Shown piece after piece: positions 2,876-24,455 of a stretch of DNA of 42,276 bases. The notes under the pieces were generated by a model. It worked only from the letters and a program-made list of their open reading frames with translations. It did no database searches and had not been told where the DNA came from. The first letter of the stretch is position 1; each line of letters opens with the position of its first letter. The position numbers and the translations under genes were made by a program. Source of the DNA: Multifurca ochricompacta (taxonomy: Eukaryota; Basidiomycota; Agaricomycetes; Russulales; Russulaceae). The DNA is taken from the NCBI GenBank assembly GCA_022496185.1, contig WTXG01000295.1, forward strand, positions 1-42,276, written 5' to 3'.

Positions 2876-2880
2876 GCAAG

Positions 2881-5596: not shown

Positions 5597-5782
5597 TGTT
5601 GACACAGGACATTTCTGGAGATGCTTCAGGCATCTAAGGTTCGCTTCAGCTGTAGATTAGATTAGATTAGATTTCGGAGTATCGGACTTTTTATGTTATC
5701 TTTATTACATTTCTTTCTCACCTTACTCAGCTGATTAGTGATGGACTTAGTAATGCGCAGTAGGCATGTGATATCTCTATGG

Positions 5783-5879
5783 CCAATGGCCTTTATCCCT
5801 CTCTGTTTATTGTCCGGCACTTGTGGACTTATTCCCAGTGCGCACAGACCATTTCCCCTGGCCCCCATGGGTATATAAG
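5783..5879 (+). promoter_or_regulatory. Copia LTR core promoter (CCAAT and TATA)
   Basis: CCAAT at 5783-5787 and TATATAAG at 5872-5879 are conserved in the other copia LTRs of the window. The TATA-to-start spacing (33 nt to 5905) is normal for RNA polymerase II. Position 5905 is also where homology to the downstream spliced copy begins, which independently supports it as the RNA 5' end. Confidence 0.75.
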
Positions 5880-5904
5880 GGTGTCTGTTTCATCTCTTTC
5901 ACTT

Positions 5905-6055
5905 CAGAGTTTCTTCAACCTCTGAAGTGTAAGTTCTACTATACTTTCTACTTTACCTTTGACTAACCGTCTCTTGTAGATACTTGTCTTTTCTAGGTCA
6001 GTAGAATAGTAATACAGAGTTTCTTCAACCTCTGAAGTATACTTGTCTTTTCTAG
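5905..6055 (+). other. LTR intron and its precisely spliced copy (L1)
   Basis: Exon 1 is 5905-5928 (24 nt, starting CAGAGTTTCTTC). The intron-like segment 5929-5979 (51 nt) begins GTAAGT, has CTAAC at 5963-5967 and ends TTGTAG. Exon 2 is 5980-5996 (ATACTTGTCTTTTCTAG). After GTCAGTAGAATAGTAATA comes 6015-6055, a 41-nt perfect copy of exon 1 joined directly to exon 2. The GT/AG junction is unambiguous. A second GT...AG segment, 5997-6055, would join exon 2 to the U5 sequence CCTAAC. Confidence 0.9.
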
Positions 6056-6105
6056 CCTAACATGCTAACCACAGTCAGTATAACCAGCAGCATGATTGTT
6101 TGACA

Positions 6106-7051
6106 CCTCCTGTATTCTGCCACTACCATTAACTACAGTAGCTACTTGTGTGGAGTTATTTTGTACACTGGGGCCTTGCCCCTTCCTCTTGTTGCCTTTT
6201 TTGCCTCCATCAGCATTGGCTCTGTCCTGTTTCCTTTGCTGACATTCATTGGCCTTGTGGCCTGGCTTCTGGCAATAGAAGCAGGTGACATCATTGGACG
6301 ATGATGCAACTGCAGGTTGTGGCATGAATTTTACTTGTTTTTGTTTTTTGTTGACATGGGCTGCCTTGTTAAGGGCAGCCCCAACACCACTTCCTGTGGG
6401 GCCGGCTAGTTGGCTTTCCTCATTTAGGAACCTTTGTACAAGGTCCCGAGGGGAAAGGCAGTCAGGAGGACCTGATGCCAGGATTGAGCCAGCAATGGCA
6501 TTGTAGGATGGAGGTAGGGATTGGAGCAAAATAAAGCTCATCTGGAGATCAGAGATCTCCATCCCATTTTCCTTGAGGGTACTCCTCACATCCAACACAC
6601 GCTGCAACTGGGGCCTGAATTGTTTCCCTTCCAAGTGGAAGGAGGACACAGAGCACCACAGATTGTAGGTGGCCATGCGACCTACTGAGCTGTAGAGCAC
6701 TTCCAAATGCTCATACTTGGCATTGACAGAGGGGTAAGCTCTGTCAGAGGCAATCTGGGAGTATGTTTCCAGTGATGTGACCATCACCAGAACTCCCATA
6801 AGGACTTCCTCCACTCTGTTCCACTCCTGGTACATCAGCTCCAACCATGCTGCAAAGCACTTAGCATACTTGTTGTCCTTTTCTCCATCCTCTGACTTGG
6901 GGGGATTGACAAATTCAGGGGCATCATGTGTGATGTGCCTCTTCATGCCATTGATCCTCAGCAGGGCTGTGAATGACACAGACCACTGCTGCCAGTTGGA
7001 GCCATCCAGCTTATTGAACTTGAAAGTTGGGGGGAAGATGATGGAAGACAT
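6106..7051 (-). pseudogene. gag: Minus-strand copia gag, cut by copia-1
   Basis: The frame opens at ATG 7051-7049 (MSSIIFPPTFKFNKLDGSNW) and runs 315 codons without a stop to the insertion point of copia-1. The upstream in-frame ATG at 7147 extends into the leader and is less likely. The N-terminal LDGSNWQQW is typical of copia gag; the knuckle CFYCQKPGHKANEC fits CX2CX4HX4C. The stop beyond 6106 lies in the copia-1 LTR and is artificial. Protease and pol of this element must lie left of the window. It has the same domain plan as copia-1 but is diverged. Confidence 0.9.
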
Positions 7052-8477
7052 TGAGATGATTTGAAAAAAAGTTGATCCTGGTTCCAAGGAGCAGTTAGAA
7101 CCAGTTGTCCAGGTCTCATTTAAGAGGGCCCATCCATTCTGTGGCACTATGCTTCAGAACTTAAAAAAGTCCTGCCTCTGATGTGTGACTTCTAAGTAGT
7201 ATAGTAGGCTGTCTAGTGCCATCTACAACAAGTCCTAAGCCCACATCAGGGGGACATTGTGTAACCAGATGGGGAGTCATGTCATGGAGGAGCCAACTGC
7301 AAGTTCCACTAGAGACAAAGTGTCACAGTTAGGTGCGGAACTGTGTCAGGGTCGGACGGGAGCAAGTCTTCCAAGTCAAGGCAAGATTCAAGGTTACAAT
7401 ATAGCTCTGGTCAAGCCCACAATGAAGTCGAAGGGCATGCGCGAGAGTTGAGGTCAATGGCAGAGACGCTCAGTCCTGCAACAAGTTCAAGGGATTGAAG
7501 GCTCTCCAAGTCACATCTTGGAGAGTTCAAGTAGGGGGTCCTAACTGAGAGGTTTCGATGGAGTCTAAAACACCTTAGATTGAGCACAAGAGAACAGACT
7601 TAAGTCTGTCTCTTCAATCTAGTTGTCTTTAAATACATGTAGAACTAGCTATGTCATAGTATATAGAAGCATCTAGTTCTATGATATAATATCTAGTGGT
7701 TGTGCAGTAGATCAAGCTAGAACTATGGAGAATAAGGAGGGGTTAGGCCCTCAGTAAGCAAACACCGGTGAAACATGATGTCAAGTCATTAGTAACATTG
7801 CAGGGAGAATTCTGTCACACAAAGGGTATAGAGCCCTTCCTCTAGTGCTGGTGGTGGAGTCCATGATTAAGCCCTAGATGATTGGGGCCATGACTATAGT
7901 AGACTATCAGGTTTCCTCTGGTTGGGGCAAACCCCCAACTAAGGCAGCGGGTACTTCTGCCCAGAGACAAAACCTTCTAGCTACTGTGTATCTACTATAG
8001 TAGTTCAAGCCTACTTGTATCAAGCCCAAGCATCATGGGAGTGACTACCCATGCCTTGTTCTAGACCCTAAACTCTACCTGCAGGTCACTGAACCTGGCT
8101 TATGGATTGAGCCAAGCATTGACTGAACCTATAGCCCCAAGCCTTCTGGGCAAGTGGCCTACTAAGACTATCTATGGGACAAAAACCCAGCTACAACTAA
8201 GAATACTATTTACTTAGAGCACACACAAGGAACTCAAGGTGTTTCACCCACTTAGGGTCCCTCATCACCTCTTGCAAGAATCCCCTGAGGGACTAGCCAG
8301 ACAGATCAAGGTGGGCACATAAAGTGCACCACCTTGTGGACAGTTAAGGGCAAGAGACAGAAGAAATTGAAGCTCACTGTGATGGTGATTGGGAAAGAAG
8401 AAGTCTTGAAGCAGTGAGCTTGAAGAAAGGTTGGACTGATCAAAAAAGAGGGAGACAGATCAGTAAAGTGGGCTCAG
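7052..8477 (-). other. 5' leader of the minus-strand copia
   Basis: Apart from the solo LTR at 7321-7819, this stretch shows no convincing ORF or repeat. It lies between gag and the primer site at 10781-10793, interrupted again by the solo LTR at 8478-10777. Net leader length is about 0.9 kb, longer than the 0.4 kb of copia-2. I found no further element with target duplications in 7825-8472. Confidence 0.6.
7321..7819 (-). mobile_element. Solo LTR related to gypsy-C, reverse (TSD CAAAG)
   Basis: The LTR is 499 bp, TGTCACAGTTAGG...ATTCTGTCACA on the plus strand, flanked by perfect CAAAG (7316-7320, 7820-7824). Orientation is minus: read in reverse it has the TATTTAAA box and ACAGACTTAAGTCTGT palindrome typical of gypsy-C-type LTRs. 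A closely similar copy interrupts gypsy-C pol at 27866-28362. No internal domain remains. Confidence 0.93.
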
Positions 8478-9194
8478 TGTGACAATTATTTCACATTTTT
8501 ACCTTGTCTCAGTTCTTCTATGCTGAATCCCTTACATTTCCGCAGCTTCAACAGCTTCATTGAATGGTCAAAGTCCTTATGACCACCTGTACAATATAGA
8601 GGGCACAACCCCTCTTAGTCCACACAAACTCCAAGCTTCATTTAACTAGACTGTTCTTTACTGATACAACTATGACATAGCTATGACCTAGCCATGATAT
8701 CATCTGTAGAAGCCTAGGACAGTCTTTAGTAGTTTACTGAGCCTCCAACCTGTATTTAAAGACCACTAGTTTCAGAGACAGACCTTAAGTCTGTTCTCTT
8801 GTACCCAATACAGGTGTTACAGACTCACCAAAAGTCCCATTCCTCTTGAGCCCCTAAGCCGCACCTTAGGAGTCTTGTCACAGCCAGGTGCAGTGCTGTG
8901 TCAAGGATTGAGGTCTTCAAGACTTATCTTGTCAAAGATCAAGTCGTTCAGGTTAAGTTGAGTCGGAGTCAAGCTATGCCAATCAGCAGGCACACGTGCG
9001 AAGCGAAGTCGAGCAGTGACACTAAGTCCTGCCACAAGTTCCTGGGGTCGAAGTCCTGTTGAACACAGAAGATGTTTGGTGATGCTTCAGGCATCAGGTG
9101 ATTAGATTAGCTACTTTGTAGATTAGATTAGATACCGGAGTCTCGGACTTTTTACATTATCATTATTACTTTCTTTCTCACATTCCGCAGTAGC

Positions 9195-9799
9195 TGTTAC
9201 GACCTACCCAGCATACCCGACAGACGGCAAGACGTGGGAGACACACAAGCAGTGACAGCAGCCGCGCGGGGTCCGCAAGGACATCGCCGGCTTAGTCATG
9301 ATGTCCCACGCCGAAGTCCAGAAGACAGGATACGGCATGAGGTACAGAAGCAGATCACATGACAGTAAGGTTTGATGCCTCATGTACAGAAGGACCCTGA
9401 ACCTTAGTTGACGTGGGAAGACGGTGGCACTGGTTCTGATGGAAGGTTCCATAGTCACACGTCCAGAACCACAAGCGTCTAGATAAGCATGATAAGAACG
9501 GATGACTAAGCTAGTACCAGCATGTATATATACCCTAGCTAGTCTCGCTCAGATGGTTCCCCATCTTGAGCTCCTGTGACAATCAGTAGCCTTGTGGACC
9601 TTTAACTTCCTTCCTTGCGTCTCACCACCCGAACTCGTCCCTTTGGTACTCGTCCTCTGTGACTTGTACACTGAGCCTGTGACTCTGGTAGACCCTGCGT
9701 CGGACTTATTGTCTTCCGCATCGACCCAAGATCGTCCTGACCTTGTCTCTGTGACCTAGCCGCCCGCACTCGACCGCGTACGCCCCTCTGAGCGTAACA
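9195..9799 (+). mobile_element. Nested solo gypsy-type LTR, level 4 (TSD GTAGC)
   Basis: This 605-bp LTR, TGTTACGACCTACCC...TGAGCGTAACA, is flanked by GTAGC (9190-9194, 9800-9804). It lies in U3 of the copia LTR L2 and is the youngest layer of this stack. It contains a TATATATA stretch (about 9526). The TGTTAC/GTAACA ends place it among gypsy-type LTRs, distinct from gypsy-A and -B. Confidence 0.92.
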
Positions 9800-9966
9800 G
9801 TAGCTGACTGATGCACCATGTAACATGTGATTTCTGTAATGGCCAATGGCCTTTCTCCCTCATGTTTATTGTTTGGACCTTGTCTGGCACTTGTGGACTT
9901 ATTCCCAGTGCACAGACCATCCCTTGGATAAGTATATAAGGGTGTCTGTTTCGTCTCCTACACTTC

Positions 9967-10113
9967 AGAGTTTCTTCTACCTCTGAAGTGTAAGTCGTCC
10001 TCTCTACTATCATCACTACCTTAGACTGACTCTGTATATAGAACTTATCTTTCTAGGTGTGTAGTATAGTATAATAGAGTTTCTTCTACCTCTGAAGTAA
10101 CTTATCTTTCTAG
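9967..10113 (+). other. LTR intron and spliced copy (L2)
   Basis: Exon 1 9967-9989, intron 9990-10041 (GTAAGT...CTGAC...TATATAG), exon 2 10042-10056 (AACTTATCTTTCTAG). The joined copy 10076-10113 is a perfect 38-nt match. Exon 2 differs from L1 in both units alike. Confidence 0.9.
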
Positions 10114-10780
10114 CCTAACCCGCTAACCTACCACAGTCAGTATGCTGCGCACATGCCTGTTTCACAAGTCCCTCTAAGGCGCAAGCTTAGAAGGTTCAAG
10201 TGGGGAGTTCCTTAGTTCAATGAAGTGAGTCCTAATAGACCTGTATTGCTACAGAAGAACAGACTTAAGGTCTTGTTCAGTTGTTACTAGGGTTTATATA
10301 CACATGCTATGTTATGATGGTAGCTACTGGAACATGTGCTAGGTAATCTAATGGTTGTACAGTAGAATACCCCAGAGAGATAAAGAAAGGAGAGGGGTTG
10401 CACCCTCTGATACTGATCTGTAAGCAACTAAGTGGGCTCAGTAAGCAAATCAGTCAGCAGATGAGTAAGTAAGTCCTTCATAAGCAAGTCATGTGGTGGT
10501 TAATGCATGGTGTGAAATGTTAAGGTAAAAAAAAGAAAAGCAAAGATATTGTCCACATGTCTCTCCACCCTGGTGCCTATGACAAGGATCGTCACAAGTC
10601 TTCACCCCAACTATCTTGTGACAGGACTGAGTGTCCCTGTTCGATTTCGCATTGCGTGCATGCCTGCTGCAACTTGTAGGGCTTGAACACCTAGGTGATA
10701 ACCTTGAGATCTTGATACTTGTCTTGCTATCCTTGACGCAAATTGACCTAGTACACAGCTAGCACCTGGCTGTGACACTC

Positions 10781-10793
10781 AGGGCCCATAACC
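10781..10793 (-). promoter_or_regulatory. Primer binding site of the minus-strand copia
   Basis: Read on the minus strand, GGTTATGGGCCCT directly follows the LTR end. It is complementary, allowing one G-U pair, to the anticodon arm of initiator tRNA-Met (GGGCUCAUAACC), as known for half-tRNA priming of Drosophila copia and Ty5. Copia-2 has the same site at 12178-12189. Confidence 0.8.
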
Positions 10794-11305
10794 TGTCGAA
10801 CAGGCATGATGTGCAGCATACTGACTGTTGGTTAGCATGTAAGGCTAGAAGACAAGTTAGACTTCAGAGATGAAGAAAACTCTATTACTATACTACTGAC
10901 CTAGAAGACAAGTTAGCTACAGAGAGTGGTTAGTCAAAGGTATAAGTAGGAAGTAATGTAGAAGACACTTACACTTCAGAGATGAAGAAAACTCTGAAGT
11001 GTAGAGGACAAAACAGACACCCTTATATACTCAGAGGGATGGTCTGTGCACACTGGGAATAAGTCCACAAGTGCTGGACAAAGTCCAAACAATAAACATG
11101 AGGGACAAAGGCCATTGGCCAGTATGGAATCACATGCTTGTACATCATTAGTAAGGTACATCAGTCAGCTACTGCAGAATGTGAGAAACAAAGTAATAAT
11201 GATATTGTAAAAAGTCCAAAACTCCGATATCTAATCTAATCCACAAAGTAACTGATCTAATCACCTGATGCCTGAAGCATCACTGAACACATCCTGTGTT
11301 CAACA
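10794..11305 (-). mobile_element. 5' LTR of the minus-strand copia (LTR L3)
   Basis: The 512-bp copia LTR in reverse runs TGTCGAACAGG...GTGTTCAACA on the plus strand. It abuts its primer site on the left and a gypsy-A-type LTR fragment on the right, into which it inserted (flank TATGT). It is the 5' LTR because the leader and gag lie to the left. It holds the R-region intron and spliced copy at 10845-10994. Confidence 0.93.
10845..10994 (-). other. LTR intron and spliced copy (L3)
   Basis: On the minus strand: exon 1 10994-10973, intron 10972-10917 (GTAAGT...CTAAC...CTGTAG, 56 nt), exon 2 10916-10901 (CTAACTTGTCTTCTAG). The joined copy 10882-10845 is a perfect 38-nt match, including variants not found in L1 or L2. 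Confidence 0.9.
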
Positions 11306-11632
11306 TATGTAATAGAGATTGGAGTCTGAATTGGAGTATCGTACTAGGTGTATCAACAAAGTTGCAATCTAGTCAAATGGGGAAATGGAGTCAGGGTGGG
11401 CCAGGTGCGAATATACATAGACAAATCTGGTATAGTTGTGATTCTGGTGAGAAAATATGTAAGAGTTTGTATGTAAAGTATGAGTCACTGATAAGAAAGA
11501 AGTTGAGTCATAGATAAGGAACAAACAAGTGCAGCACCTGTCATAACACAGTCAACAAGGAACAAGCAAGGCCAAACAACACGTCACATGAAGGAAAAAT
11601 GAAAGAAAGACGATGCAACAGGGTTTGTAACA
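11306..11632 (-). mobile_element. Partial gypsy-A-type LTR, reverse
   Basis: The reverse complement matches the first ~327 bp of the gypsy-A LTR, from TGTTACAAACCC (ending at 11632) to the sequence just before its TATA box. There the minus-strand copia inserted; the remainder must lie left of the window. It is more diverged than copies A1-A3. Confidence 0.85.
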
Positions 11633-11795
11633 CTTACCAGTTGCCAGTTGCACACTATTACAGAATTTTGAAAGACCAATGAAAACTGGTTTACACCAGT
11701 TGCAACCAGTCTTTTACATAATACAAAGACCATTGATTTCTTAGGTATTATGTCAGCTCCTGAAACCTGAAAATAATGGCTGCATCATGGATTGA
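11633..11795. other. 163-bp spacer between two old LTR pieces
   Basis: I see no ORF or recognised element here. It contains several copies of ACCAGTTGC or close forms. It may be host DNA or the remains of an older element, and is the only unassigned sequence in the window. Confidence 0.4.
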
Positions 11796-11883
11796 TGTTA
11801 CAAACCCTGTTGCATCATCTTTTTCCTTTTCTTTGGCATGTGATTCATTGCTTGGCTCTGTTTGACCTTTGTTGACTGTGTTA
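11796..11883 (+). mobile_element. Partial gypsy-A-type LTR, forward
   Basis: The first 88 bp of a gypsy-A-like LTR (TGTTACAAACCCTG...GACTGTGTTA), interrupted by copia-2. The preceding bases are ATTGA. It faces away from the reverse fragment at 11306-11632. Confidence 0.82.
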
Positions 11884-13311: not shown

Positions 13312-15045
13312 AACAAGGCAGTTAACACACATCTAGCCACAACATTGGCATCTATTGTAGAAGTTACCAATGACACTAATGATATCTGTGTTTCCTTGTA
13401 TGCTGCTGCCCAATCTCACTGGATGATGGACTCTGGCACAACACATCACATAACCCCACACTGATCTGACTTCACAGAGTATGCACCCATGAATGGGACT
13501 GTCTGCCTAGGCAACAACTCCAACGTCAAACAAATCAGTGTCAGGAAGGTGGTCTTCAAAACCACTCTTGGGAGTTGAGATTCTGAGGTTACCCTGAATA
13601 ACATTCTTCACACTCCAGATGTTCAGACATGCTTCATCTCTACACGTGCTCTTGCACAAAGGGGTGCTCAGATCTCATTCACTGATAAGTTTTTTACTAT
13701 TACGGTACAAACCCGGAAAATTGTGCAAGGGTACCTGGAGGACAACCTCTATTGGCTGGATGCCTCTATCTCTGCCCTTCATGCGCACATGCACACGCAC
13801 ACATCTCATCCTATTGACCTTTGGCATTGCCATATGGGGCACATGTCTTACAATGCCCTCAAACGGTATCATTCTTCTGTAAAAGGAATCTCGCTTGATG
13901 CTTCAATCATCTCCAACCAGTCACCATGTCCTGGGTGTGAATTTGGGAAACAGTCACAACTACCCTTTTTGGTCTCTCACAAGCACTTGGATCAGTGTCT
14001 ACAAATTGTTCACAGTGATCTAGCCAGCCTGATGCAGAAACAGTCTCTCCAAGGCACACTTTACATCGCAACATTTGTTGATGACTATTCCAGACATGGG
14101 GTAGTGTACTTTCTCTGAAGCAAAGATCAGCTTGCCGCTGCATTCAAAAAGTTCCTCTCCTGGGCTGAGACCCAGATGACTGAGAAACTGCTTGCACTGC
14201 ATTCTGACCACAGGGGGGAGTTCTTATCAGGTGCTGTGAGAACTGTACTGGACCAAAAGGGGATCAAACATAAGCTGACGATGCCAGGTTTGCCGCAACA
14301 AAACGGCATAGCTGAGCGATGGAATCGAACCATCATGGACAAAGCACAGGTGATGCTACATGGTGCCAGCTTGTCCCTCGGCTTCTGGGAGCTGGCAGTG
14401 GATACTGCCATTCACACTTACAATAGGACTGCCAGCAGAATGATAGGTTGGCACATGCTGCATGAGCTCTGGAGTGGTGGTCATGCTCCAGATGTCTCAT
14501 ATTTCTGAGTCTTTGGCTGTAAGGCATATGTACACATGCCTGAGAACAAGCATAAGAAACTCGATCCATGATCAGTCGAGATGATGCTTGTAGGGTATGA
14601 GCCAGGTTCTAAGGGTTACTGGTTCTGGAATCGACATACCCAATCAATAGCTCTGTCACATGATGTAGCATTCAATGAGAGTTCCCTTCCTTTTTGGGAG
14701 AGCAGCCAGCCATCTGCCTCACCCGCACAACCCCCAGTCCTTGAAGGACCACTGGCCGTCACTGTCCCCATGTCCTCTGCTATCCCAGCAATCGCTTCCG
14801 GAGTGGCTGCTCTGCCAAGGACGCCATCTCCACCAGCTACCCCACAACACATTTCAGGTCCTGAACCCGAAGTCTTAGATGCTCCCCCCACTTATGCACC
14901 CACTTCCTGTATCCTCCAGTCCTGACATTGCGCAGACTCCACCTTGGAGGATCTCCTGCAGCTGCGGCCAAACCCTCGGCAAAACCCTCATTACTACAAT
15001 GAGGACAATGCTGCACTTGATGCAAATGGGAGACTGGGTCACACA
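13312..15045 (+). pseudogene. pol: Copia-2 protease and integrase, cut by gypsy-A3
   Basis: One frame (that of gag) encodes the protease (HWMMDSGTTHHI, about 13420), the HHCC domain (WHCHMGHMSYNA ... CPGCEFGKQSQLPF) and the integrase core with D in VHSDLAS, D in LHSDHRGEF and E in IAERWNRT. VFGCKAY and LVGYEPGSKG follow, then the linker up to NEDNAALDANG where gypsy-A3 inserted. Internal stops are TGA at 13462, 13576, 14116, 14506, 14569 and 14923. There is no frameshift. RT and RNase H must lie right of the window. Confidence 0.9.
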
Positions 15046-15642
15046 TGTTACAAACCCTGCTATGTCATCTTGTTTCCTTTTCCTCTTCATGTGACATGTT
15101 ATTTGGCCTTGTTTGACCTTTGTTGACTGCATTGTGACTGGCTTTATGCCTGTTTGTTCCTTATCTATGACTCAACTTCTTGCTTATCTGTGACTCATAC
15201 TTTACATATGGACTCTTACATATTTTCCCACCAGAATCACAACTATACCAGATCTGTCTATGTATATTCTCACCTGGCCCACCCCTACTCCATTTCCCCA
15301 TTTAGCTAGATTATGACTTCGTTGATACACTGAGTACGTTACTCCAATTCAGACTCCGACCTCTATTACGTATATAAGGCCTGCCTAGATAGCCTGTATG
15401 CCTTAGACTCAACTTCTTAATCGACTTGGTGCATTACCTTCTGGGTGATCTCTAAGACCCAACTCTTGAATTGTCTCAGTGCTTCTGGCACTTCTCCACT
15501 CACCAGTACTAAGGGATTAGCTCCTTGGTATTGACTCCTCCTCTGACCTCTGTGTACTTGAAAGACAGTGCACACTTGACTTCATAGTTTTGCTACATGA
15601 CATTATCACATGTCGTGATGAATGCCCGCACCAGGTGTTACA
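15046..15642 (+). mobile_element. 5' LTR of gypsy-A3
   Basis: The LTR is 597 bp, TGTTACAAACCC...AGGTGTTACA, with TATATAAG at 15371-15378 and the predicted RNA start AGACTCAACTT at 15405-15415. Compared with A2, GACGAACGCC has become GATGAATGCC, typical CpG decay. Confidence 0.94.
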
Positions 15643-15644
15643 TT

Positions 15645-15655
15645 AAGTCAAGTCT
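15645..15655 (+). promoter_or_regulatory. Self-primer binding site of gypsy-A3
   Basis: AAGTCAAGTCT lies 2 nt after the LTR. It is complementary to the predicted RNA 5' end AGACTCGACTT (intact in LTR 424-434) except at one decayed CpG. This fits Tf1-type self-priming and no tRNA is needed. Confidence 0.65.
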
Positions 15656-16517
15656 CCCCCACCATGGCTTCATCTAGTTGAAGCCAGACCTTGCACGATG
15701 AAGAACTTATCAACTGCCGAGATGAGGATAATCTTTCACAACAAGTCCTTGGCTCTGCCATCTGGAAAGACTTCACAACTGAGTTTGGATACTACGTCTA
15801 TCACAACGACCAGTACCAGCCAGTTGAATATGACGAACAGAAACGGGTTTGGTACTGTATCCATTACTCTAGAAGCCATCGTTCCTGGGTCACCACAGGA
15901 CCTGCCCCACCAGAGTACGGCTTAGGACCTTGGAGAGAGAATCCTCCAGCCATTGTCACCAATTCAGAACCCAAAGAATATATTGAAGAAAGCAGCAAAG
16001 ACACACAGGTCATAGCCACTAGTTTTATGGCTCAGACAGTTGCACCTGAGAGCACTATGTTCAGAACATCTGCTTTAGTCTGTCCACAGACTACACGACA
16101 AACCTCAGACACCCCGACTATCACTTACCCAACCATGTTGACCATCACTGCACAATTGCCAGACCCTGCTCCAGTTGTCCCTGCTCTGAACCTCCCTCCC
16201 CCATCAGGATGCCTTATGGGAGTCCTGCTGACTACATTCACCAGCGACCAATCTCAGAGCAAGAAGTTCATGCTCAAGTTCAAGACATTCAAAAATTTCA
16301 ATCATGACGTCCCACAAATTGTGAACCCCTTCCAACGAACCAACCTTTTCCTCTCACTCATCAGAGGAGACTCTGTTGATGACTGGACAATGGAGCAGAT
16401 AGAATGGCTGAATGATAGGATCACAGCTGGAACCAGGACCACAGACAAGGATCTGTGGGATATAGTGGCACAAAGATTTAAGGACACCTTCACAGACAGG
16501 CAAGCCAAGCAGAAGGC

Positions 16518-17025
16518 TGTCAAACAATCATGCTGCTGGTTATACTGACTGTGGTTAGTAGCGGTGAAGCTAGAAAGACAAGTATACTTCAGAGGTTGAA
16601 GAAACTCTTTATTAACTATACTACTGACCTAGAAAGACAAGTATCTACAAGAGACGTTAGTCAAAGGAAAGTAGAAAGTATAGTAAGACTTACACTTCAG
16701 AGGTTGAAGAAACTCTGAAGTGGAAGAGATGAAACAGACACCCTTATATACCCATGGGGGCCAGGGGAAAAGGTCTGTGTGCACTGGGAATAAGTCCACA
16801 AGTGCTGGACAATAAACAGAGAGGGATAAAGGCCATTGGCCAAAGAGATATCACATGCTTACTGCGCATTACTAAGTCCATCACTAATCAGCTGAGTAAG
16901 GTGAGAAAGAAATGTAATAAAGATAACATAAAAAGTCCGATACTCCGAAATCTAATCTAATCTAATCTACAGCTGAAGCGAACCTTAGATGCCTGAAGCA
17001 TCTCCAGACACGTCCTGTGTCAACA
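16518..17025 (-). mobile_element. Solo copia LTR in gypsy-A3 gag (LTR L4, TSD AAGGC)
   Basis: The 508-bp copia LTR is in reverse, TGTCAAACAATC...GTGTCAACA on the plus strand, flanked by perfect AAGGC (16513-16517, 17026-17030). Removing it with one TSD restores the gag sequence of copy A2. It is the same subfamily as the copia-1 LTR. Confidence 0.96.
16570..16716 (-). other. LTR intron and spliced copy (L4)
   Basis: On the minus strand: exon 1 16716-16694, intron 16693-16645 (GTAAGT...CTAAC...TTGTAG, 49 nt), exon 2 16644-16629 (ATACTTGTCTTTCTAG). The joined copy 16608-16570 is a perfect 39-nt match. Exon 2 has one T fewer than L1, in both units. Confidence 0.9.
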
Positions 17026-17696
17026 AAGGCTGCCAGAGAATTAAAAACACTGAAAATGGAGAGGGGGGATTTGGATGGATATGTAGCCAAATTCTGCAAT
17101 CTGGCTAAAAGAGCAGGGTATGATGTGAATGAAGAGGCAACACTCGACCTCTTCTCCCAGGGATTGCCCAACCCCCTGGTGAAAAACATTATTCAATTCC
17201 ATCACCCCAAGTCATGGAGCCAGTGGATGAACGCTGCCAGGAGACAGCAGCAGGACTACCTAGACTTTCAGACATGCTTTGGTGTGGATACCAAGAAGGG
17301 TAAAACCCATGACCAATGGAAGGCAGCATTTGGAGTAAAACCTACGCCCTCACATGATCCAAACACCATGGACATGTCAGCAGATCATACTAAGGCTTGT
17401 GCAGCACTCACCAATGATGAGAAGAAGTCTCTCATGAAAGAAGGGCACTGCTTTCACTGCTGAGCTCAAGGACATATGTCACAGTTCTGCCCAAAGAAAA
17501 CAGTCTGGGCTGCTGAAGCAACTGTAGCAACCACCACTACAACACCACCTGTACAAAATCTGCCTACCCCAGTCAAAGAAAACCCAATGACCACCTTGAA
17601 AATGAAGGAACAAAAGGTGGAAGCCATTTGGGAACATATGATGATTGAAGACGAGGCAGTCCATGCCCTGTTAGTTGATAAGGCCTTCGGCCACAA

Positions 17697-17855
17697 GGAT
17701 TTTTGATCAGCTCGACCCCATTGGCCTGGGCAAGAGCACTTCATGTAACTTCTGTGTACACTAGTCATTTCAAATCTCTAAAAATACCAGTACACTTTGA
17801 AACCAAACAAAAGACAGCCGACAGACAGATATTAATTGACTCTAGAGCAACAGAC
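17697..17855 (+). pseudogene. pol: Gypsy-A3 frameshift site and protease start
   Basis: The heptamer GGATTTT (17697-17703) sits in the gag frame directly before the TGA, as in A2. The -1 frame then encodes the pol N-terminus up to the protease active site, here IDSRATD instead of the family IDSGATD, so a catalytic-loop glycine is lost. A reverse copia LTR starts at 17856. Confidence 0.8.
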
Positions 17856-18195
17856 TGTTGAACAGGCATGAGGTGCAGCATACTGACTGTGAAGCATTAG
17901 CAGTTTAGGCTAGAAACAAGTTATACTTCAGAGGTGAAGAAAACTCTGTTACACTATACTACACACCTAGAAACAAGTTATCTACAAGAGACAGTTAGTT
18001 AGAGGTAAAGTAGTAAGTAGAGAGACTGGGACTTACACTTCAGAGGTGAAGAAAACTCTGAAGTGTAAGAGACGAAACAGACACCCTTATATACTCTTCA
18101 AGGGATGGTCTGTGCACTGGGAATAAGTCCTCAAGTGCCAGACAAAGTCCAAACAATAAACATGAGGGAGAAAGGCCATTGGCCATTACAGAAAT
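17856..18195 (-). mobile_element. Partial copia LTR, reverse (LTR L5)
   Basis: TGTTGAACAGGCATG...at 17856 is the 3' end of a reverse copia LTR. It continues past the TATA box and CCAAT region to 18195, where copia-D inserted (flank GAAAT). The other part would lie right of the window. Whether it is solo or part of an element cannot be seen. Confidence 0.88.
17910..18060 (-). other. LTR intron and spliced copy (L5)
   Basis: On the minus strand: exon 1 18060-18037, intron 18036-17982 (GTAAGT...CTAAC...TTGTAG, 55 nt), exon 2 17981-17967 (ATAACTTGTTTCTAG). The joined copy 17948-17910 is a perfect 39-nt match, again with its own private variants. Confidence 0.9.
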
Positions 18196-18248
18196 TGTGA
18201 AACAGGCATGTGCGCAGCATACTGACTGTGGTAGGTTAGCGGGTTAGG

Positions 18249-18402
18249 CTAGACAAAGACAAGTTAACTCAGAGGTAGAAGAAACTCTATATTACTATAC
18301 TACTGACCTAGACAAAGACAAGTTACTACAAGGAGCGTTAGTCTCAAGGTATGATAGTAAGTAAGAGAAGGGACTTACACTTCAGAGGTAGAAGAAACTC
18401 TG
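18249..18402 (-). other. LTR intron and spliced copy (L6)
   Basis: On the minus strand: exon 1 18402-18379, intron 18378-18326 (GTAAGT...CTAAC...TTGTAG, 53 nt), exon 2 18325-18308 (TAACTTGTCTTTGTCTAG). The joined copy 18288-18249 matches except for one missing A and one C-to-T at the edge. It is the only imperfect pair of the six. Confidence 0.87.
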
Positions 18403-18411
18403 AAGTGTAAG

Positions 18412-18739
18412 TGTTACAATACCTAATACGATACCTTTCCCCGTACTATACAGACAGAAACATACGATACTGCAACGTACGACTTTTTCTCCTCCTTTAC
18501 TCTTACTAGCCTCAAACCTTAGCAGCACCCTTAACATAAAAACGTCATCCTCTTCCACTCCTATTTAAGTTACCATACGCTCAAGCTATATTCCTTAGTC
18601 TTGAGCTTTTGTGATCTACGTAGCTCTGTGACCCGGAATATCACCCTCTCTCCTCTTTACTTGAGCTGCGCGCTGAGTAACTGCCTTGCCTCCCGAACTA
18701 TTGGACTTTGGACCAGCGAACTGAGCTTCAAACGTAACA
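18412..18739 (+). mobile_element. 5' LTR of gypsy-B
   Basis: TGTTACAATACC...AACGTAACA. TATTTAAG at 18562-18569 is followed 35 nt on by AGTCTTGAGCTT (18597-18608), the predicted RNA 5' end. GCTCAAG/CTTGAGC (about 18589-18606) can form a hairpin there. Confidence 0.95.
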
Positions 18740-18740
18740 T

Positions 18741-18752
18741 AAGCTCAAGACT
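18741..18752 (+). promoter_or_regulatory. Self-primer binding site of gypsy-B
   Basis: AAGCTCAAGACT, one base after the LTR, is a perfect 12-nt complement of AGTCTTGAGCTT at 18597-18608, the predicted 5' end of the RNA. This is the arrangement of Tf1, whose RNA 5' end is cut and used as primer. Confidence 0.8.
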
Positions 18753-18779
18753 AAACCAGAAAATCTTTGAACAGAAACT

Positions 18780-20210
18780 ATGTCTGCACCCATGAACCCT
18801 GCTCCCGTTGCTCCCATACATACGACCCTCCCATTCCCACTGAACCCCAGACTGACCGATGACATCCCTCTACTGGAACGACTGAACACTCACTGGATTA
18901 ATGTTTCCTCCTCGACTGCTAATGTCCCCTGGACTGGCTACTTCGCCGCGGCAGGACAAAAGCTTATCCCCATTGAACGATACAATGGGCTCTGGTTTGA
19001 GCTCGCCTTCTTCGCCTCTGTCAATTCGTATCAAGCCATCCGTTTGGCCCGAGCATCTTTCAACCTTCCTCGCATCCCCGAAGTACCTGTTAACATACAA
19101 TTACTCATTGATTCCTCATTGGATGGTGGTGACACACAGACAACAATGACTACTCCAGTCCCAAGTCCAGGACAAAACAACAAACGCCTAGAAGGAACAG
19201 TAGCATTCCGTTTCAGAGGCGACAGAACCCAATCAGAACACTTTTTATCCGTCTTTCACCAATATATGAGTATAAACGATCAAGCTGAAATCGCATGCAA
19301 CCCAATGAAGAAATCACACTTCTTTATACAACAGATGGAAGGACCACTAGTACAAACCTTTCAACTTGGCATGATCAACGACCTCCGAGCAATCGAAGCT
19401 GGAACAATGAAAATTACACAGCCAACACCCTGGGAATATACTGAAGAACGATTTAAAGCATCATATTTTGACTTTGGCATCAAAGAACGAGCTTACGATG
19501 AGCTAAGAAAACTACAAATGACTGGTGGACGAATTGACGAATATTTAACAAACTTTGCATCTCTAGTCACTCGTTCCGATGTCCACCCAAATGATGCCAG
19601 TACTCTACGCCTTTTTGCGTCTGGACTTCAAGGAGATTTAGCAAAGAACTGTGTCCTTCGTCATCGACCAACAACCTTACAGGAATGGGGACATGCAGCA
19701 CAACAGGAAAATACAGCTTATCTTACCATCAAAACAATTGAACAAGATCAACGTGATCGCGGAACTCGATCCTCCACCCCTCTTGCGCCTAGACCAACAA
19801 TGACTTCCAATACCCCATTTTGGCGCCGCCCTGCAAATCAACGACCAAATCAAATACAACCCCCACGAGACCCGAATGCGATGGACATTGACGTTATTCG
19901 ACGTGCCATCACAGATGAAGACAAGGAGCGATGCAAGCGCGAAGGTCTTTGCTTCTTTTGCATGAAAAAGGGGCATCTTTCATGTGACTGCCCCCACAAG
20001 AAGCCTCGTATTGCCACTGCAACAGTCGATACCCTGACCACTCCTGCAACATCCACAACAAACTCCATGACACCAGCTCCCACACTACAAACCGCATCAA
20101 AAAAATCTAATGCTGAACGAATTGCGGCCCTCCTCAAACAGATGACTCCAGAAGAAGAAGAGGAGGTTCAAGTGTTACTAGATAAAGAGTCGGGTTTTCT
20201 GCCAGCCTGA
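18780..20210 (+). CDS. gag: Gypsy-B Gag (capsid-nucleocapsid)
   Basis: This is an intact 476-residue Gag starting at the first ATG after the leader (MSAPMNPAPV). The N-terminal ~120 residues include LPFPLNPRLTDDIPLLERL, similar to the LPTRLTDNI start of gypsy-C Gag. The capsid spans roughly residues 140-320 (Retrotrans_gag; GDRTQSEHFLSVF ... LASLV...LRLFASGLQGDL). The zinc knuckle CFFCMKKGHLSCDC (about residues 395-408) fits CX2CX4HX4C and binds the element RNA. The C-terminal tail is acidic (EEEEEVQVLLDKES). The stop lies in the stem of a hairpin after a slippery heptamer, so some ribosomes should continue into pol. Confidence 0.95.
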   Translation: MSAPMNPAPVAPIHTTLPFPLNPRLTDDIPLLERLNTHWINVSSSTANVPWTGYFAAAGQKLIPIERYNGLWFELAFFASVNSYQAIRLARASFNLPRIPEVPVNIQLLIDSSLDGGDTQTTMTTPVPSPGQNNKRLEGTVAFRFRGDRTQSEHFLSVFHQYMSINDQAEIACNPMKKSHFFIQQMEGPLVQTFQLGMINDLRAIEAGTMKITQPTPWEYTEERFKASYFDFGIKERAYDELRKLQMTGGRIDEYLTNFASLVTRSDVHPNDASTLRLFASGLQGDLAKNCVLRHRPTTLQEWGHAAQQENTAYLTIKTIEQDQRDRGTRSSTPLAPRPTMTSNTPFWRRPANQRPNQIQPPRDPNAMDIDVIRRAITDEDKERCKREGLCFFCMKKGHLSCDCPHKKPRIATATVDTLTTPATSTTNSMTPAPTLQTASKKSNAERIAALLKQMTPEEEEEVQVLLDKESGFLPA

Positions 20211-20232
20211 AGGGACGTCCCGCCCTTAAGGC
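20186..20232 (+). promoter_or_regulatory. -1 ribosomal frameshift signal, gypsy-B gag/pol
   Basis: Gag and pol overlap at 20186-20210, pol being in the -1 frame. The heptamer GGGTTTT (20192-20198) lies in gag phase G_GGT_TTT, the canonical X_XXY_YYZ slip pattern. After a 6-nt spacer, GCCTGAAGGG (20205-20214) pairs with CCCTTAAGGC (20223-20232), nine of ten pairs, around an 8-nt loop. The gag TGA is inside the 5' arm. Confidence 0.82.
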
Positions 20233-23200
20233 CATTGTAGATCGGTTTGTACCTAAAGCTCTCAGAATACAAACATCATTTTCTACCATTGGGACTGTGT
20301 CTGCACTCGTTGACAGCGGTGCAACCGAAAATTTCATCCATCAAAAGTTTATCTCGCAACACCACCTCCATACTAACCCGCTCCCTACTCCAAAAACGAT
20401 CTCAAATGTTGATGGTTCTCCGAATGCTGCTGGTTCCATCTCTTGTTTCCTTCCCTGTACAGTCCACACCGGCTCCAAAACCTGTTCATTCAACTTCTTT
20501 GTTACGGACCTTGGCAGCGAAGACATCATCTTAGGCTACCCTTGGCTTGCTCACACCTCACCAACTATCACCTGGCCAACCGCATCCATCCAGGAGCACG
20601 TCTGTATCCTTCCGCAGGGGCAAAATCCAGCTCCTTCACCCCCAATACCCTATCACATTAACTCTACCTCTTTAGGATTACTACCTGGCGAAGAACTCAT
20701 CATGCGTCTATCACCCACCACTGAACTAGCCATACAACAGCAACCTCCTTCAGATGTCACGATCCCAGAACAGTATCAACACTTCACCAAGGTCTTCTCC
20801 GAGGATGCTGCACTACGCTTCCCAGATGCGCGACAATGGGATCACGCCATTGATCTAAAACCTGATGCTCCTGCAACACTTGACTGTAAGATTTATCCAC
20901 TTAATCCAGCTGAACAAACTGCATTAGAAGAATTCCTACATGAACATTTATCAAAAGGCTACATCCGTGAATCCAAATCCCAATACGCATCTCCTTTCTT
21001 CTTTGTAAAGAAGAAAGATGGCAGCAAATTACGACCAGTACAAGACTATCGAAAGCTAAATGAACATACCCTCCGAAATACGTACCCTCTCCCTCTCATT
21101 GATGAACTAATTGCCAAGGTACGACATGCAACGCTATTTACCAAGTTTGATGTTCGATGGGGCTATAACAATGTACGTATCAAAGAGGGTGACCAGTGGA
21201 AGGCTGCTTTCAAAACAAACAAAGGACTTTTCGAACCTCTAGTCATGTATTTTGGACTAACTAATTCCCCGGCGACATTCCAAACCATGATGAATGCACT
21301 CTTTCGAAAGGAACTGGATGAAGGCTGGCTGGTAATTTACATGGACGACATCCTAATAGCAACCACCAACGACCCCACCTTCCACCAACAATGCATCACA
21401 CGCGTCCTCCAAATTTTACTCGACAACGATCTATTCCTAAAACCATCAAAATGCACTTTTCACACAAATAAAATAGACTACCTTGGCGTCATTCTCGAAC
21501 ACGGTACTGTATCCATGGACCCTACAAAAGTTAATGGTCTTCTAGAATGGCCAACCCCCACATCCGTAAAACAAGTCCGCAGCTACCTCGGCTTTGGCAA
21601 TTACTACCGTTGTTTTATTAAGGGATATTCTCAACTTGCGCGGCCACTGATTGATCTCACTAAACTAGCCACACCATGGACCTGGTCAGAAAAAGAAGAG
21701 AAAGCATTCAATACACTTAAGAAAATGTTCAGTTCCGCCCCTGTATTACGACAACCGCATATACAAGAACCATTTTTTGTTACAACCGACGCCTCTGGCT
21801 ATGCAATCGGCGCAGAGTTGGCACAGCAAGACGCTTCGGGACGACTTCATCCGGTAGCGTTCCTCTCAAAATCACTAGACCAAACGCAACGCAACTGGGA
21901 TATATACGACCGAGAGCTCTATGCTATCTGGTTCCCCCTTCAAGAGTGGAGACAATACCTCATGGGATCACCTCATCCTGTTACAGTCTTTTCAGATCAT
22001 CATAATCTACAGTATTTTTGCAAACCCCAAAAACTCAACAGGCGACAAGCACGTTGGCATTTAGACCTAATGGAGTATGACTTTGTCATTAAACCTATAC
22101 AGGGAAAACATAATATTATCGCTGATCTCCTCTCTCGACGACCTGATTATGACAATGGCCTCACAGATAATGAACACACAGTACTCCTCCCAAACGAAAA
22201 TTGGTCTCTCAAAGTCATTCAACTCGCCGAAGATCATGATACTTATCGAGAAATTGCCAAACAGTTCCATGACCACCCACTGGCCGGACACCCTGGTCGC
22301 CGCAATACCTGGGACCTTGTCTCCGAGATTTATAACGGTCCAAATTTACGTGAGTTCATCACTAACTATGTCAAAGGATGCCATGCGTGCCAAGCAACCA
22401 AACCACGCATGAAAACACCGGTTCCACTCTCCCCTTTCGATACCCCCGCAACCGAAGGCCCTTTTCAATTTATCTCCCTCGATCTCATCACGGACCTCCC
22501 TTTGTCACAAGGTTACAACGCTATTCTCACTATTGTTGACCAGGGATGCTCAAAAATGGCCAAGTTTATTCCCTGTTCTACTTCTATTACTGGTATTGAT
22601 GTTGCATCTCTCTATTTCACGCACCTCTTTCCCCTATTTGGTGTTCCAAAACGCGTGATTTCTGATCGTGACCCCCACTTCACATCAAGTTTCGTCAGAA
22701 AATTGTGCAAGACTCTCTCCATCTCTCAAAACATTAGTACCGCATTCCACCCCCAAACGGATGGCCAAACAGAACGCATGAACCGGTGGGTTGAACAATA
22801 CCTTCATCACTGGACCTTTGGAAACCCCCACACTTGGGCTCCTCTCCTCCCTATGGCCGAATTTGTCCATAACCGATGGCGTCATGATAAAACTAAGCTT
22901 AGCCCCCATGAATTACTCCTTGGCTTCCGTCCTAGTCCCCCAAACTCCAAAATTACCACCCCAATCCCCACCTTATCAGATCGCCTCGCTTCTATTCTCT
23001 CTGCCCGTCGTCTCGCATCCAAAGTTCTGGAACAACTGACACCTCTAACACCATCTTTCTCCCTCCATGATCAGGTCTGGCTTGAAGGTAAGCATATCTC
23101 CTCCCTCTTCCCATCCCAAAAGCTCGCCCCCCGCCGCCATGGACCCTTCACGATCACCCGCGTTATATCTCCCGTTGCCTTCGAACTTGCCCTCCCTCCT

Positions 23201-23782
23201 TCCCTAAAGATTCACAATGTTTTCCATGCCTCCCTTCTCTCCCCATACATCACCACCTCTGCATATGGCCCATCCCCGCCTCGACCCCCTCCTGTCCTGG
23301 TTCATGGCACCGAGGAAGTTGAAATCGACCGTGTCATTGGCCACCGCCGCTCAGGCCGCCTAGGCCGCCTCCAGTTTCTCCTTTGCTGGAAGGGGTTCCC
23401 ATCCTCTGACAATGAATGGGTCGATTATCGTCATATTCATGCCGATGACCTCATTCATGACTACCTTTCCACCCTTCCCCCTTCCCTTGCTGCTGCCCTT
23501 CCTGTTCGTAGTCTCACAAACCTTACAATGGGAGGTAATTCACCTTCAAAACCCTCACCCCACCTTTTTATTCGCATACCCCCGAGAAAGCCTATAAAGT
23601 CCACACCCCCACCAATATCCGCATCCGATGAAAAATGCATTCGCCATATCGCCCCACTCCCAACCCAGACCTTTGCCACATACAACTCCATTGAAATGGC
23701 TCAAAAAACCCTCCTTACACAATGCTGCCTAAACAAAGCAGCCGCTGCCTATCATCTCACCCCTGTTTTAATTGCACAGTAA
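20186..23782 (+). CDS. pol: Gypsy-B Pol: protease, RT, RNase H, integrase, chromodomain
   Basis: This open frame has no ATG near its start and is expected as a Gag-Pol fusion by -1 frameshift. Order: aspartic protease (ALVDSGATENF, about 20310); RT with FDVRWGYNN (about 21150) and YMDDI (about 21339); RNase H with TTDASG, YDRELYAI and FSDHHNL; integrase HHCC (HPLAGHPG ... CHACQATK); integrase core with D in SLDLITDLP, D in ISDRDPHF and E in GQTERMNRW; then a chromodomain (EIDRVIGHRRS ... LLCWKGFPSSDNEW, about 23310-23460) for chromatin targeting. About 100 residues follow, Pro/Ser-rich at first. No stop or frameshift was found. GTG at 20297 is not a eukaryotic start. Confidence 0.96.
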   Translation, partial: RVGFSASLKGRPALKAIVDRFVPKALRIQTSFSTIGTVSALVDSGATENFIHQKFISQHHLHTNPLPTPKTISNVDGSPNAAGSISCFLPCTVHTGSKTCSFNFFVTDLGSEDIILGYPWLAHTSPTITWPTASIQEHVCILPQGQNPAPSPPIPYHINSTSLGLLPGEELIMRLSPTTELAIQQQPPSDVTIPEQYQHFTKVFSEDAALRFPDARQWDHAIDLKPDAPATLDCKIYPLNPAEQTALEEFLHEHLSKGYIRESKSQYASPFFFVKKKDGSKLRPVQDYRKLNEHTLRNTYPLPLIDELIAKVRHATLFTKFDVRWGYNNVRIKEGDQWKAAFKTNKGLFEPLVMYFGLTNSPATFQTMMNALFRKELDEGWLVIYMDDILIATTNDPTFHQQCITRVLQILLDNDLFLKPSKCTFHTNKIDYLGVILEHGTVSMDPTKVNGLLEWPTPTSVKQVRSYLGFGNYYRCFIKGYSQLARPLIDLTKLATPWTWSEKEEKAFNTLKKMFSSAPVLRQPHIQEPFFVTTDASGYAIGAELAQQDASGRLHPVAFLSKSLDQTQRNWDIYDRELYAIWFPLQEWRQYLMGSPHPVTVFSDHHNLQYFCKPQKLNRRQARWHLDLMEYDFVIKPIQGKHNIIADLLSRRPDYDNGLTDNEHTVLLPNENWSLKVIQLAEDHDTYREIAKQFHDHPLAGHPGRRNTWDLVSEIYNGPNLREFITNYVKGCHACQATKPRMKTPVPLSPFDTPATEGPFQFISLDLITDLPLSQGYNAILTIVDQGCSKMAKFIPCSTSITGIDVASLYFTHLFPLFGVPKRVISDRDPHFTSSFVRKLCKTLSISQNISTAFHPQTDGQTERMNRWVEQYLHHWTFGNPHTWAPLLPMAEFVHNRWRHDKTKLSPHELLLGFRPSPPNSKITTPIPTLSDRLASILSARRLASKVLEQLTPLTPSFSLHDQVWLEGKHISSLFPSQKLAPRRHGPFTITRVISPVAFELALPPSLKIHNVFHASLLSPYITTSAYGPSPPRPPPVLVHGTEEVEIDRVIGHRRSGRLGRLQFLLCWKGFPSSDNEWVDYRHIHADDLIHDYLSTLPPSLAAALPVRSLTNLTMGGNSPSKPSPHLFIRIPPRKPIKSTPPPISASDEKCIRHIAPLPTQTFATYNSIEMAQKTLLTQCCLNKAAAAYHLTPVLIAQ

Positions 23783-23833
23783 CTAAGAACACCTAGAGTT
23801 CGTCAAGGGACTTCGAACCTTAGCGAGAGGTAA
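23783..23833 (+). other. Gypsy-B 3' UTR and polypurine tract
   Basis: A short 51-bp tail ends in the purine-rich AGCGAGAGGTAA directly before the LTR. The ending GGTAA is shared with gypsy-A. Confidence 0.75.
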
Positions 23834-24161
23834 TGTTACAATACCTAATACGATACCTTTCCCCGTACTATACAGACAGAAACGTACGATACTGCAACGT
23901 ACGACTTTTTCTCCTCCTTTACTCTTACTAGCCTCAAACCTTAGCAGCACCCTTAACATAATAACGTCATCCTCTTCCACTCCTATTTAAGTTACCATAC
24001 GCTCAAGCTATATTCCTTAGTCTTGAGCTTTTGTGATCTACGTAGCTCTGTGACCCGGAATATCACCCTCTCTCCTCTTTACTTGAGCTGCACGCTGAGT
24101 AACTGCCTTGCCTCCCGAACTATTGGACTTTGGACCAGCGAACTGAGCTTCGAACGTAACA
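23834..24161 (+). mobile_element. 3' LTR of gypsy-B
   Basis: 328 bp, four differences from the 5' LTR. Ends CGAACGTAACA and is followed by the duplication GTAAG. Confidence 0.96.
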
Positions 24162-24455
24162 GTAAGAGACGAAACAGACACCCTTATATACAATCCAAGG
24201 GATGGTCTGTGCACTGGGAATAAGTCCACAAGTGCCAGACAAGGTCCAAACAATAAACATGAGGGAGAAAGGCCATTGGCCATTACAGAAATCACATGTT
24301 ACATGGTGCATCAGTCAGCTACTGCGGAATGTGAGAAAGAAAGTAATAATGATAATGTAAAAAGTCCGAGACTCCGGTATCTAATCTAATCTACAAAGTA
24401 GCTAATCTAATCACCTGATGCCTGAAGCATCACCGAACATCTTCTGTGTTCAACA

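Follow-up and report, generated by a model that had tools for sequence, protein, structure and literature searches.

Long terminal repeats of a copia-type element in Multifurca ochricompacta carry their leader twice, with and without an intron-like stretch

The DNA analysed here, referred to as the window, is a stretch of 42,276 nucleotides (nt) that makes up contig WTXG01000295.1 of the basidiomycete Multifurca ochricompacta (assembly GCA_022496185.1). It contains six long terminal repeats (LTRs) of a Ty1/copia-type retrotransposon, in which the parts follow one another in the order U3-E1-intron-E2-s-E1'-E2'-U5, where U3 and U5 are the outer regions of the LTR, E1 and E2 the two exons of a first unit, s a short spacer, and E1'-E2' an intron-less second unit. 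In the genome, about 1,400 LTRs of this one element carry the leader twice in this manner, with and without the intron-like stretch. It is probable, judging from the sequences, that the second unit is a DNA copy of the doubly spliced 5' end of the element's own RNA, renewed in every replication cycle when the first strand transfer takes place.

LTR 1 (5597-6105, plus strand) begins with TG, ends with CA, and is preceded by the purine tract GGAGGGA, which is also found in front of other 3' LTRs. Its TATA box TATATAAG (5872-5879) lies 34 nt before the start of E1, and the U3 bases just 5' of the presumed RNA start (5896-5905) constitute the left arm of a predicted hairpin that pairs with the end of E1 and the splice donor. 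E1 (AGAG...GAAGT) occupies 5906-5928 and is followed by intron 1 of 51 nt (5929-5979, GTAAGT...CTAAC...TAG) and by E2 of 17 nt (5980-5996), the TAG end of which adjoins the GTCAGT of the spacer. The spacer (5997-6015) has a donor-like start (GTNNGT) and ends in a variable junction, after which unit 2 repeats the exons of unit 1 letter by letter as E1' (6016-6038) and E2' (6039-6055), and the last 50 nt (6056-6105) are U5. The stretch s-E1'-E2' (5997-6055) could represent a second intron, whose removal would join E2 to U5.

The other five LTRs repeat this plan. LTR 2 (9057-10166, plus strand) is a solo LTR flanked by a 5-bp target duplication AGTCC (9052-9056 and 10167-10171), with unit 1 at 9967-10056, its intron at 9990-10041, and an exact unit 2 at 10076-10113. 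It is split at 9185-9790 by about 600 unrelated bases that begin near GTTACGACC and are probably another LTR-type insertion. LTR 3 (10794-11305, minus strand, like those that follow) is a 5' LTR with a stretch resembling a primer-binding site (PBS), GGTTATGGGCCCTG, at 10780-10793; its unit 1 lies at 10995-10901 with the intron at 10917-10972, and its exact unit 2 at 10883-10845. LTR 4 (16518-17025) is again solo, with the 5-bp target duplication AAGGC (16513-16517 and 17026-17030), unit 1 at 16716-16629, intron at 16645-16693, and an exact unit 2 at 16608-16570. U3 is truncated in the last two: LTR 5 (17856-18190, the latter position being approximate) has unit 1 at 18059-17967, the intron at 17982-18036 and an exact unit 2 at 17947-17910, and LTR 6 (18196-18411, ends approximate), a fragment without the U3 upstream of the hairpin arm, has unit 1 at 18401-18308, the intron at 18326-18378 and unit 2 at 18288-18249.

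A first-pass annotation of this DNA had located the six spliced copies, and on re-reading all of them are found where it placed them. All six LTRs share an E1 of the form AGAG...GAAGT, an intron 1 of the form GTAAGT...CTRAC...TAG, an E2 of 15-18 nt that ends in TAG, and a spacer of about 17-20 nt that begins with GTCAGT or GTGTGT. The introns measure 51, 52, 56, 49, 55 and 53 nt in LTRs 1 to 6, which agrees with the range of 49-56 nt and the conserved signals given earlier, and the exon-2 sequences are indeed six different ones (ATACTTGTCTTTTCTAG, AACTTATCTTTCTAG, CTAACTTGTCTTCTAG, ATACTTGTCTTTCTAG, ATAACTTGTTTCTAG and TAACTTGTCTTTGTCTAG). The annotation had also counted five perfect pairs and a sixth with two changes. 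The five perfect pairs stand, and the exons of the sixth show a single change, a deleted A in E1' (GAAGT to GAGT); the second change was probably the base just before AGAG, which is a variable junction base in the family.

To place the six LTRs in the context of their family, the 53.8-Mb genome was searched with exact patterns, and the copy counts are therefore lower bounds. The exon-1 end together with the donor, CTCTGAAGTGTAAGT, has 1,460 matches on both strands, some of which are the palindrome read antisense (e.g. at window position 18398), and the reversed control has none. Unit 1 with its intron is linked to U3 in 1,494 cases, the spacer is followed by E1' in 1,396 places, and E1 is joined to E2 right behind U3 in 37 intron-less LTRs. 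LTRs for comparison were retrieved mostly around the first-listed copies, on contigs C1-C22, and for most of them the sampling demanded an exact 15-base exon end plus donor. Among 113 fuzzy donor matches, 102 could be parsed; the 11 unparsable ones comprise six that are interrupted by other sequence, two that are unit 2 itself, one antisense match, one cut within unit 2, and L067, which has no unit 2. Addition of later loci gave an enlarged set of 103 LTRs with 55 unit-1 haplotypes, and 95 placed LTRs with 52 unit-1 haplotypes served for further comparisons, the tree and nearest-neighbour tests using one LTR per haplotype. Ten element pairs, each consisting of a 5' and a 3' LTR, were compared as well.

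The two units of an LTR match each other far more closely than they match the rest of the family. Both exons are identical between the units in 93 of the 102 parsed LTRs, the remaining nine differing by one to three changes, and in the enlarged set E1'E2' equals the E1E2 of its own LTR in 94 of 103. When unit 2 was randomly reassigned among these 103 LTRs, 10,000 shuffles gave a mean of 3.2 exact matches and a maximum of 12. The comparison of divergence proposed in the first-pass annotation points in the same direction: within LTRs there are 10 substitutions in 4,008 aligned sites (0.25%) plus three gaps, as against 4.4% and many gaps in 2,688 sampled pairs of different LTRs. For 48 of 52 unit-2 sequences, no unit 1 is closer than the one in the same LTR, and for 45 of 52 that unit 1 is strictly the nearest of all sequences. 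The same annotation had named a clustering of unit-2 copies apart from unit-1 exons as the outcome that would speak against it. In a tree of the sample the copies do not group in this way, and a single clade of all unit-2 copies is rejected for the 52 haplotypes by the approximately unbiased test (p-AU 0.006). The identity in 94 of 103 LTRs, the tree, and the low divergence within LTRs thus support the earlier proposal of an ongoing copying by splicing and reverse transcription, as far as this can be deduced from DNA.

A few unit-2 variants may record single rounds of this copying. In the 103 LTRs, six unit-2 haplotypes are absent among the unit-1 haplotypes, and each of them occurs in a single LTR or, once, in both LTRs of one element. 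The latter element, on contig C12, has a matching target duplication (CCCTT), and the presence of one unit-2 variant in both its LTRs is as expected from one round. Its unit-2 haplotype is identical to the E1E2 of four intron-less LTRs, so that the RNA of another element may have been the source and the variant need not be an error of that round. A unit-2-only change common to both LTRs is seen in two pairs, the one on C12 with its target duplication and C19 45746/52056, which has none.

The signals around both presumed introns are those of spliceosomal introns. The donor GTAAGT is found in 102 of 102 LTRs, a figure to be read with the sampling in mind, which favoured GTAAGT; intron 1 ends in TAG in 100 of 102, s begins with GTNNGT in 101 of 102, and a branch-point-like CTRAY lies 11-17 nt from the 3' end of the intron in all 95 placed LTRs. 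Intron 2, the stretch s-E1'-E2' of about 58 nt, would extend from GTNNGT to the final TAG of E2'. A leader from which intron 1 alone had been removed was considered and ruled out, as the half-spliced join E1-E2-s has zero occurrences in the genome with a strict pattern and is also absent from the 37 intron-less LTRs. All of these 37 read U3-E1-E2-U5, with 24 different E1E2 haplotypes. Since the strict pattern does not find s after spliced E1-E2, both the 53-nt intron and the intron 2 of about 58 nt would have to be removed, and the copied leader appears to be E1^E2^U5.

A replication cycle that would generate this arrangement can be outlined as follows. Transcription would start at AGAG. This motif, with which unit 2 begins, stands 34 nt downstream of the first T in TATATAAG in 100 of the 103 LTRs and 33 nt downstream in two, and the box is absent in one, which makes AGAG a plausible RNA start. 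The 5' end of the RNA would then be spliced twice, losing intron 1 and intron 2, as the existing joins suggest. Minus strong-stop cDNA of the composition E1-E2-U5 would anneal over about 40 nt to the pre-spliced E1'-E2' close to the RNA 3' end, and synthesis would then continue across s, E2, intron 1, E1 and U3. In the new LTR, unit 2 would accordingly go back to the parent RNA's spliced 5' end, and unit 1 with its intron to the unspliced 3' end of that RNA. Growth of the repeat would be avoided, since the old unit 2 would be removed from the leader as part of intron 2. Were there no unit 2, E1 would be the landing place of the spliced cDNA and the LTR would lose its intron; the 37 intron-less LTRs look as if this had happened to them.

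How a single RNA could be spliced at its 5' end and remain unspliced at its 3' end is the least certain step. The last bases of U3 ahead of the presumed start are complementary to a stretch made up of the E1 end and the five initial intron bases, which creates a palindrome over the start and the donor. In the 95 placed LTRs, 14 of 14 positions pair in 49, 13 in 45, and 12 in one. Local folding gives a mean of -18.0 kcal/mol with the upstream arm as compared with -3.7 without it. Of the left arm, no more than four bases remain in an RNA that starts at AGAG. The 3' copy would thus be the only place for the complete stem, which is predicted to hide the donor there, and the hairpin would in this way allow both states in one molecule. 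In a longer sequence context, the donor region is predicted to be unpaired with a value of 0.30 in the 5' copy, 0.17 in the 3' copy, and 0.26 when the arm is shuffled. We put forward only tentatively, and with somewhat more doubt than confidence, the complete picture of a splice-and-land LTR, in which a hairpin straddling the start blocks the donor in the 3' RNA copy alone, the landing copy is overwritten in each cycle, the introns persist indefinitely, and a 40-nt segment is always rebuilt from RNA and never inherited from its predecessor.

The junction between s and E1' is where the landing of the strong-stop DNA would have left its mark. Among 276 close pairs of LTRs from different insertions, which overlap and are thus not independent, the last bases of s show 0.213 differences per site, the highest value of the parts compared (intron 0.171, U5 0.114, E1E2 0.085, first 12 bases of s 0.074, U3 0.036). 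The base before AGAG differs in 101 of these pairs, and in 7 of the 18 in which U3 differs by no more than 2%; it is T in 73, C in 15, A in four and G in three of the 95 LTRs, which together have 22 different tails, and s ends in an AT-rich stretch. Within an element, the junction is identical in both LTRs in nine of ten pairs, and in eight of the eight pairs with matching target duplications. A seam that varies between insertions and is constant within one fits a joint that is made anew in each round.

Such a seam would also be expected from an end-to-end transfer, in which the RNA would terminate with s and receive the spliced strong-stop DNA by direct joining, without a landing site, unit 2 being appended anew in each round. 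Of the competing explanations this one survives best, and we regard it as possible although unlikely. The variation of the s|E1' junction in letter and length and the AT-rich end of s speak for it. An unaided join is unnecessary, however, as E1'E2' offers about 40 nt of perfect homology, and homology of the terminal repeat R is the normal guide of the first strand transfer according to PMC5371799. A further argument comes from one exceptional LTR (L126, G000:C37:44860-45500, minus strand), which contains E1-intron-E2-s twice in tandem and then E1'E2'. It has the same s junction in both copies, which speaks against an end-to-end joining. This LTR is the product expected if an unspliced strong-stop DNA had landed on E1', and it holds the sole second unit in the genome, by exact pattern, that is followed by a donor.

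Alternatively, the spliced leader could have been duplicated once, long ago, and gene conversion, or a selection that favours matching R sequences, could have kept the two units alike since then, without any renewal from RNA. The repeats are short and close together, their identity would be useful for strand transfer anyway, and three of the element pairs look like whole-LTR conversion. Yet conversion would have to reach E1 (23 nt) and E2 (14-18 nt) and spare the intron between them, and GTAAGT directly follows E1' in only one of the 1,396 places, by which conversion as the main cause is ruled out. It also speaks against an old duplication that the unit-2-only haplotypes of the 103 LTRs are confined to single LTRs or to one element, and that unit 2 varies less than the junction in front of it. 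We consider this explanation improbable.

Very little speaks for a start of transcription at E1', which would make unit 2 the real R and unit 1 a mere feature of U3, with no splicing involved. E1'E2'U5 would then be an ordinary R-U5, but units that are inherited apart should diverge, and they do not; this covariation of the two units is what rules the proposal out. In addition, the TATA box sits 34 nt before E1, and GTAAGT...CTRAY...TAG would be left unexplained. Still less credible is an artefact of assembly or repeat collapse, for although homopolymer-length differences within one element (C3 90647/96645) suggest some base-level error, the same anatomy recurs in about 1,400 places with 52 unit-1 haplotypes in 95 LTRs, and 5-bp target duplications flank the two solo LTRs of the window and eight of ten element pairs.

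Several observations weigh against the renewal of unit 2 from spliced RNA as outlined above, or against the hairpin. In three of the ten element pairs (C3 20576/14613, C3 90647/96645 and C7 26456/20458; L017-L020, L034 and L035), each flanked by a matching target duplication, the two LTRs are told apart by an E2 indel, common to both units of one LTR. The simplest form of the model does not predict such concordant differences, because both LTRs of an element should come out equal from a single round of reverse transcription. For these three pairs, one has to assume that another copy later converted an LTR or that a context-dependent error of assembly occurred, neither of which is certain. Most differences in C3 90647/96645 look like errors in homopolymer length. 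In C7 26456/20458, no difference is seen in the 300 U3 bases compared, those that exist being in R-U5, which suggests later conversion by another copy. Matching 5-bp flanks are present in eight of the ten pairs; C19 30726/36817 and C19 45746/52056 (L075-L078) have none and may each join two insertions. Intron 1 is nearly as variable as the junction (0.171 as against 0.213). With regard to the hairpin, only 75 of 91 LTRs have a donor that is less open at the 3' end than at the 5' end and the mean differences are modest, no covariation or compensatory change was found in 95 LTRs, and an A.C pair at hairpin position 9 is uncompensated in three of the 95. As compensatory changes are missing, the case for the hairpin is one of conserved complementarity. 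Finally, intron-less LTRs could also arise by a DNA deletion between E1 and E1', and the intron-less L089 appears to sit at the 5' end of an element in which the 3' LTR (in L026) has retained the intron. As the deletion would give the same letters, we do not use the intron-less LTRs as proof of reverse transcription.

Both C19 pairs consist of near-identical LTRs about 6 kb apart with a PBS-like stretch, and they are perhaps products of recombination between insertions. Ten of the intron-less LTRs have an adjacent PBS-like stretch, and for two of these ten an intron-less partner on the same strand is listed, about 6 kb away on C246 and about 13 kb away on C46, and a third of the ten is L089 with its apparent intron-bearing partner; at three guessed partner sites of intron-less LTRs, no partner was found. 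Four intron-less LTRs on C257, C294, C498 and C523 (L110, L111, L119 and L121) have a common downstream flank and are therefore probably one insertion that was copied by duplication of the locus. A mixing of U3 and U5 classes, looked for as a sign of transfer between elements, was seen in one of 95 LTRs with crude classes. Six loci keep intron 1 and have a shortened R. In L067 (G000:C14:35490-36190), intron 1 is kept and E2 is joined straight to U5 without a unit 2, and the same rare arrangement is present at G000:C601:39162. At G000:C526:12498-12599 (plus strand), the end of intron 1 is replaced by the end of exon 1, with CTAATGTCTCTGAAGT before TTAACTTG; this LTR is possibly a product of template switching or recombination.

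The element to which the LTRs belong is represented in the window by copia-type reading frames upstream of LTR 1 (634-5296, plus strand), with gag at 634-1254 (PF14223), integrase at 1143-2963 (rve), reverse transcriptase (RT) at 3479-4390 (RVT_2, E 2.5e-58) and a further frame at 4799-5296. Homologous frames stand beside LTRs of the same type in other loci (ten loci searched); the RT piece has many listed relatives and is uninformative about the LTRs. A PBS-like GGTTATGGGCCC was found at 43 of 128 loci, and in aligned 5' LTRs it lies at the LTR end; we take it to resemble the half-tRNA site of Drosophila copia. Such half-tRNA priming is described in PMC5371799. A search of the genome for the gene of the initiator tRNA as a primer, with two patterns, gave no matches, and neither did Rfam on the window or IMG/VR. 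Two related stretches that start with TGTTACRAACCC (62-640 and 15039-15650), near copia-type frames, resemble LTRs that would belong to another family. Ty3/gypsy-type frames with chromodomains are found at 18780-23782 and 37574-42090, and the window is therefore a nest of several retrotransposon families.

In many respects the element resembles the Ty1/copia group (Pseudoviridae): it has a copia-type gag, an integrase domain upstream of the RVT_2 reverse transcriptase, TG...CA ends with 5-bp target duplications (LTRs 2 and 4 of the window and eight of ten element pairs), and the PBS-like stretch. It differs from them in its LTR, which contains an intron and repeats the leader a second time without that intron. 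The introns of Ogre, EVADE and Cer1 lie outside the LTRs, in the internal region. Here, intron 1 lies between the TATA box and U5, and the element is thus not of that internal-intron type. In a review (PMC12786077), Ogre and EVADE are presented as intron-bearing and Cer1 as a spliced LTR element, and they would have in common with our family a splicing within the retrotransposon transcript and different uses of spliced and unspliced RNA. As far as is known, splicing serves these three for subgenomic RNAs or for a protein from spliced RNA, whereas in our family it is the leader within the LTR that carries the intron, and strong-stop DNA would be templated directly by the spliced 5' end.

A transfer of minus strong-stop DNA guided by R is the standard for retroviruses and Ty elements, according to PMC5371799, and the jump proposed here is likewise guided by a terminal repeat common to both RNA ends. 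In contrast to these systems, the presumably spliced 5' R would not be collinear with the 3' R, which is made up of the unspliced unit and the pre-spliced copy, and E1'E2' would restore the match. In the R regions of retroviruses, splice donors and hairpins, such as those of foamy virus and human T-cell leukaemia virus and the poly(A) hairpin of human immunodeficiency virus type 1, are known to let the same sequence be handled differently at each RNA end. Unlike there, acceptor and donor are both inside the LTR in our family, and the predicted hairpin spans the start and would form at the 3' end only. Splicing within and from LTR elements has been reported in PMC4558846, and no such duplication is mentioned in the accessible portion of that paper. 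No intron inside an LTR was found among the matches listed in the open-access literature, which mostly leaves subscription papers outside; one match appears, by its title, to be about the bacterial ltrB intron.

Retroelements that pass through a spliced RNA are expected to lose their introns, and intron loss is a classic mark of retrotransposition. If our interpretation is correct, this element retains an intron precisely where strand transfer is guided, as it holds a spliced version next to the unspliced one and renews the former in each cycle. The roughly 1,400 LTRs would then form a natural archive of splicing and of the first strand transfer, with the RNA start, the joins, the additions at the junction and the errors of single rounds legible in DNA. 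The hairpin would be a candidate for an RNA switch by which a transcript with the same sequence at both ends could distinguish the 5' copy from the 3' copy, which is a general problem of LTR elements.

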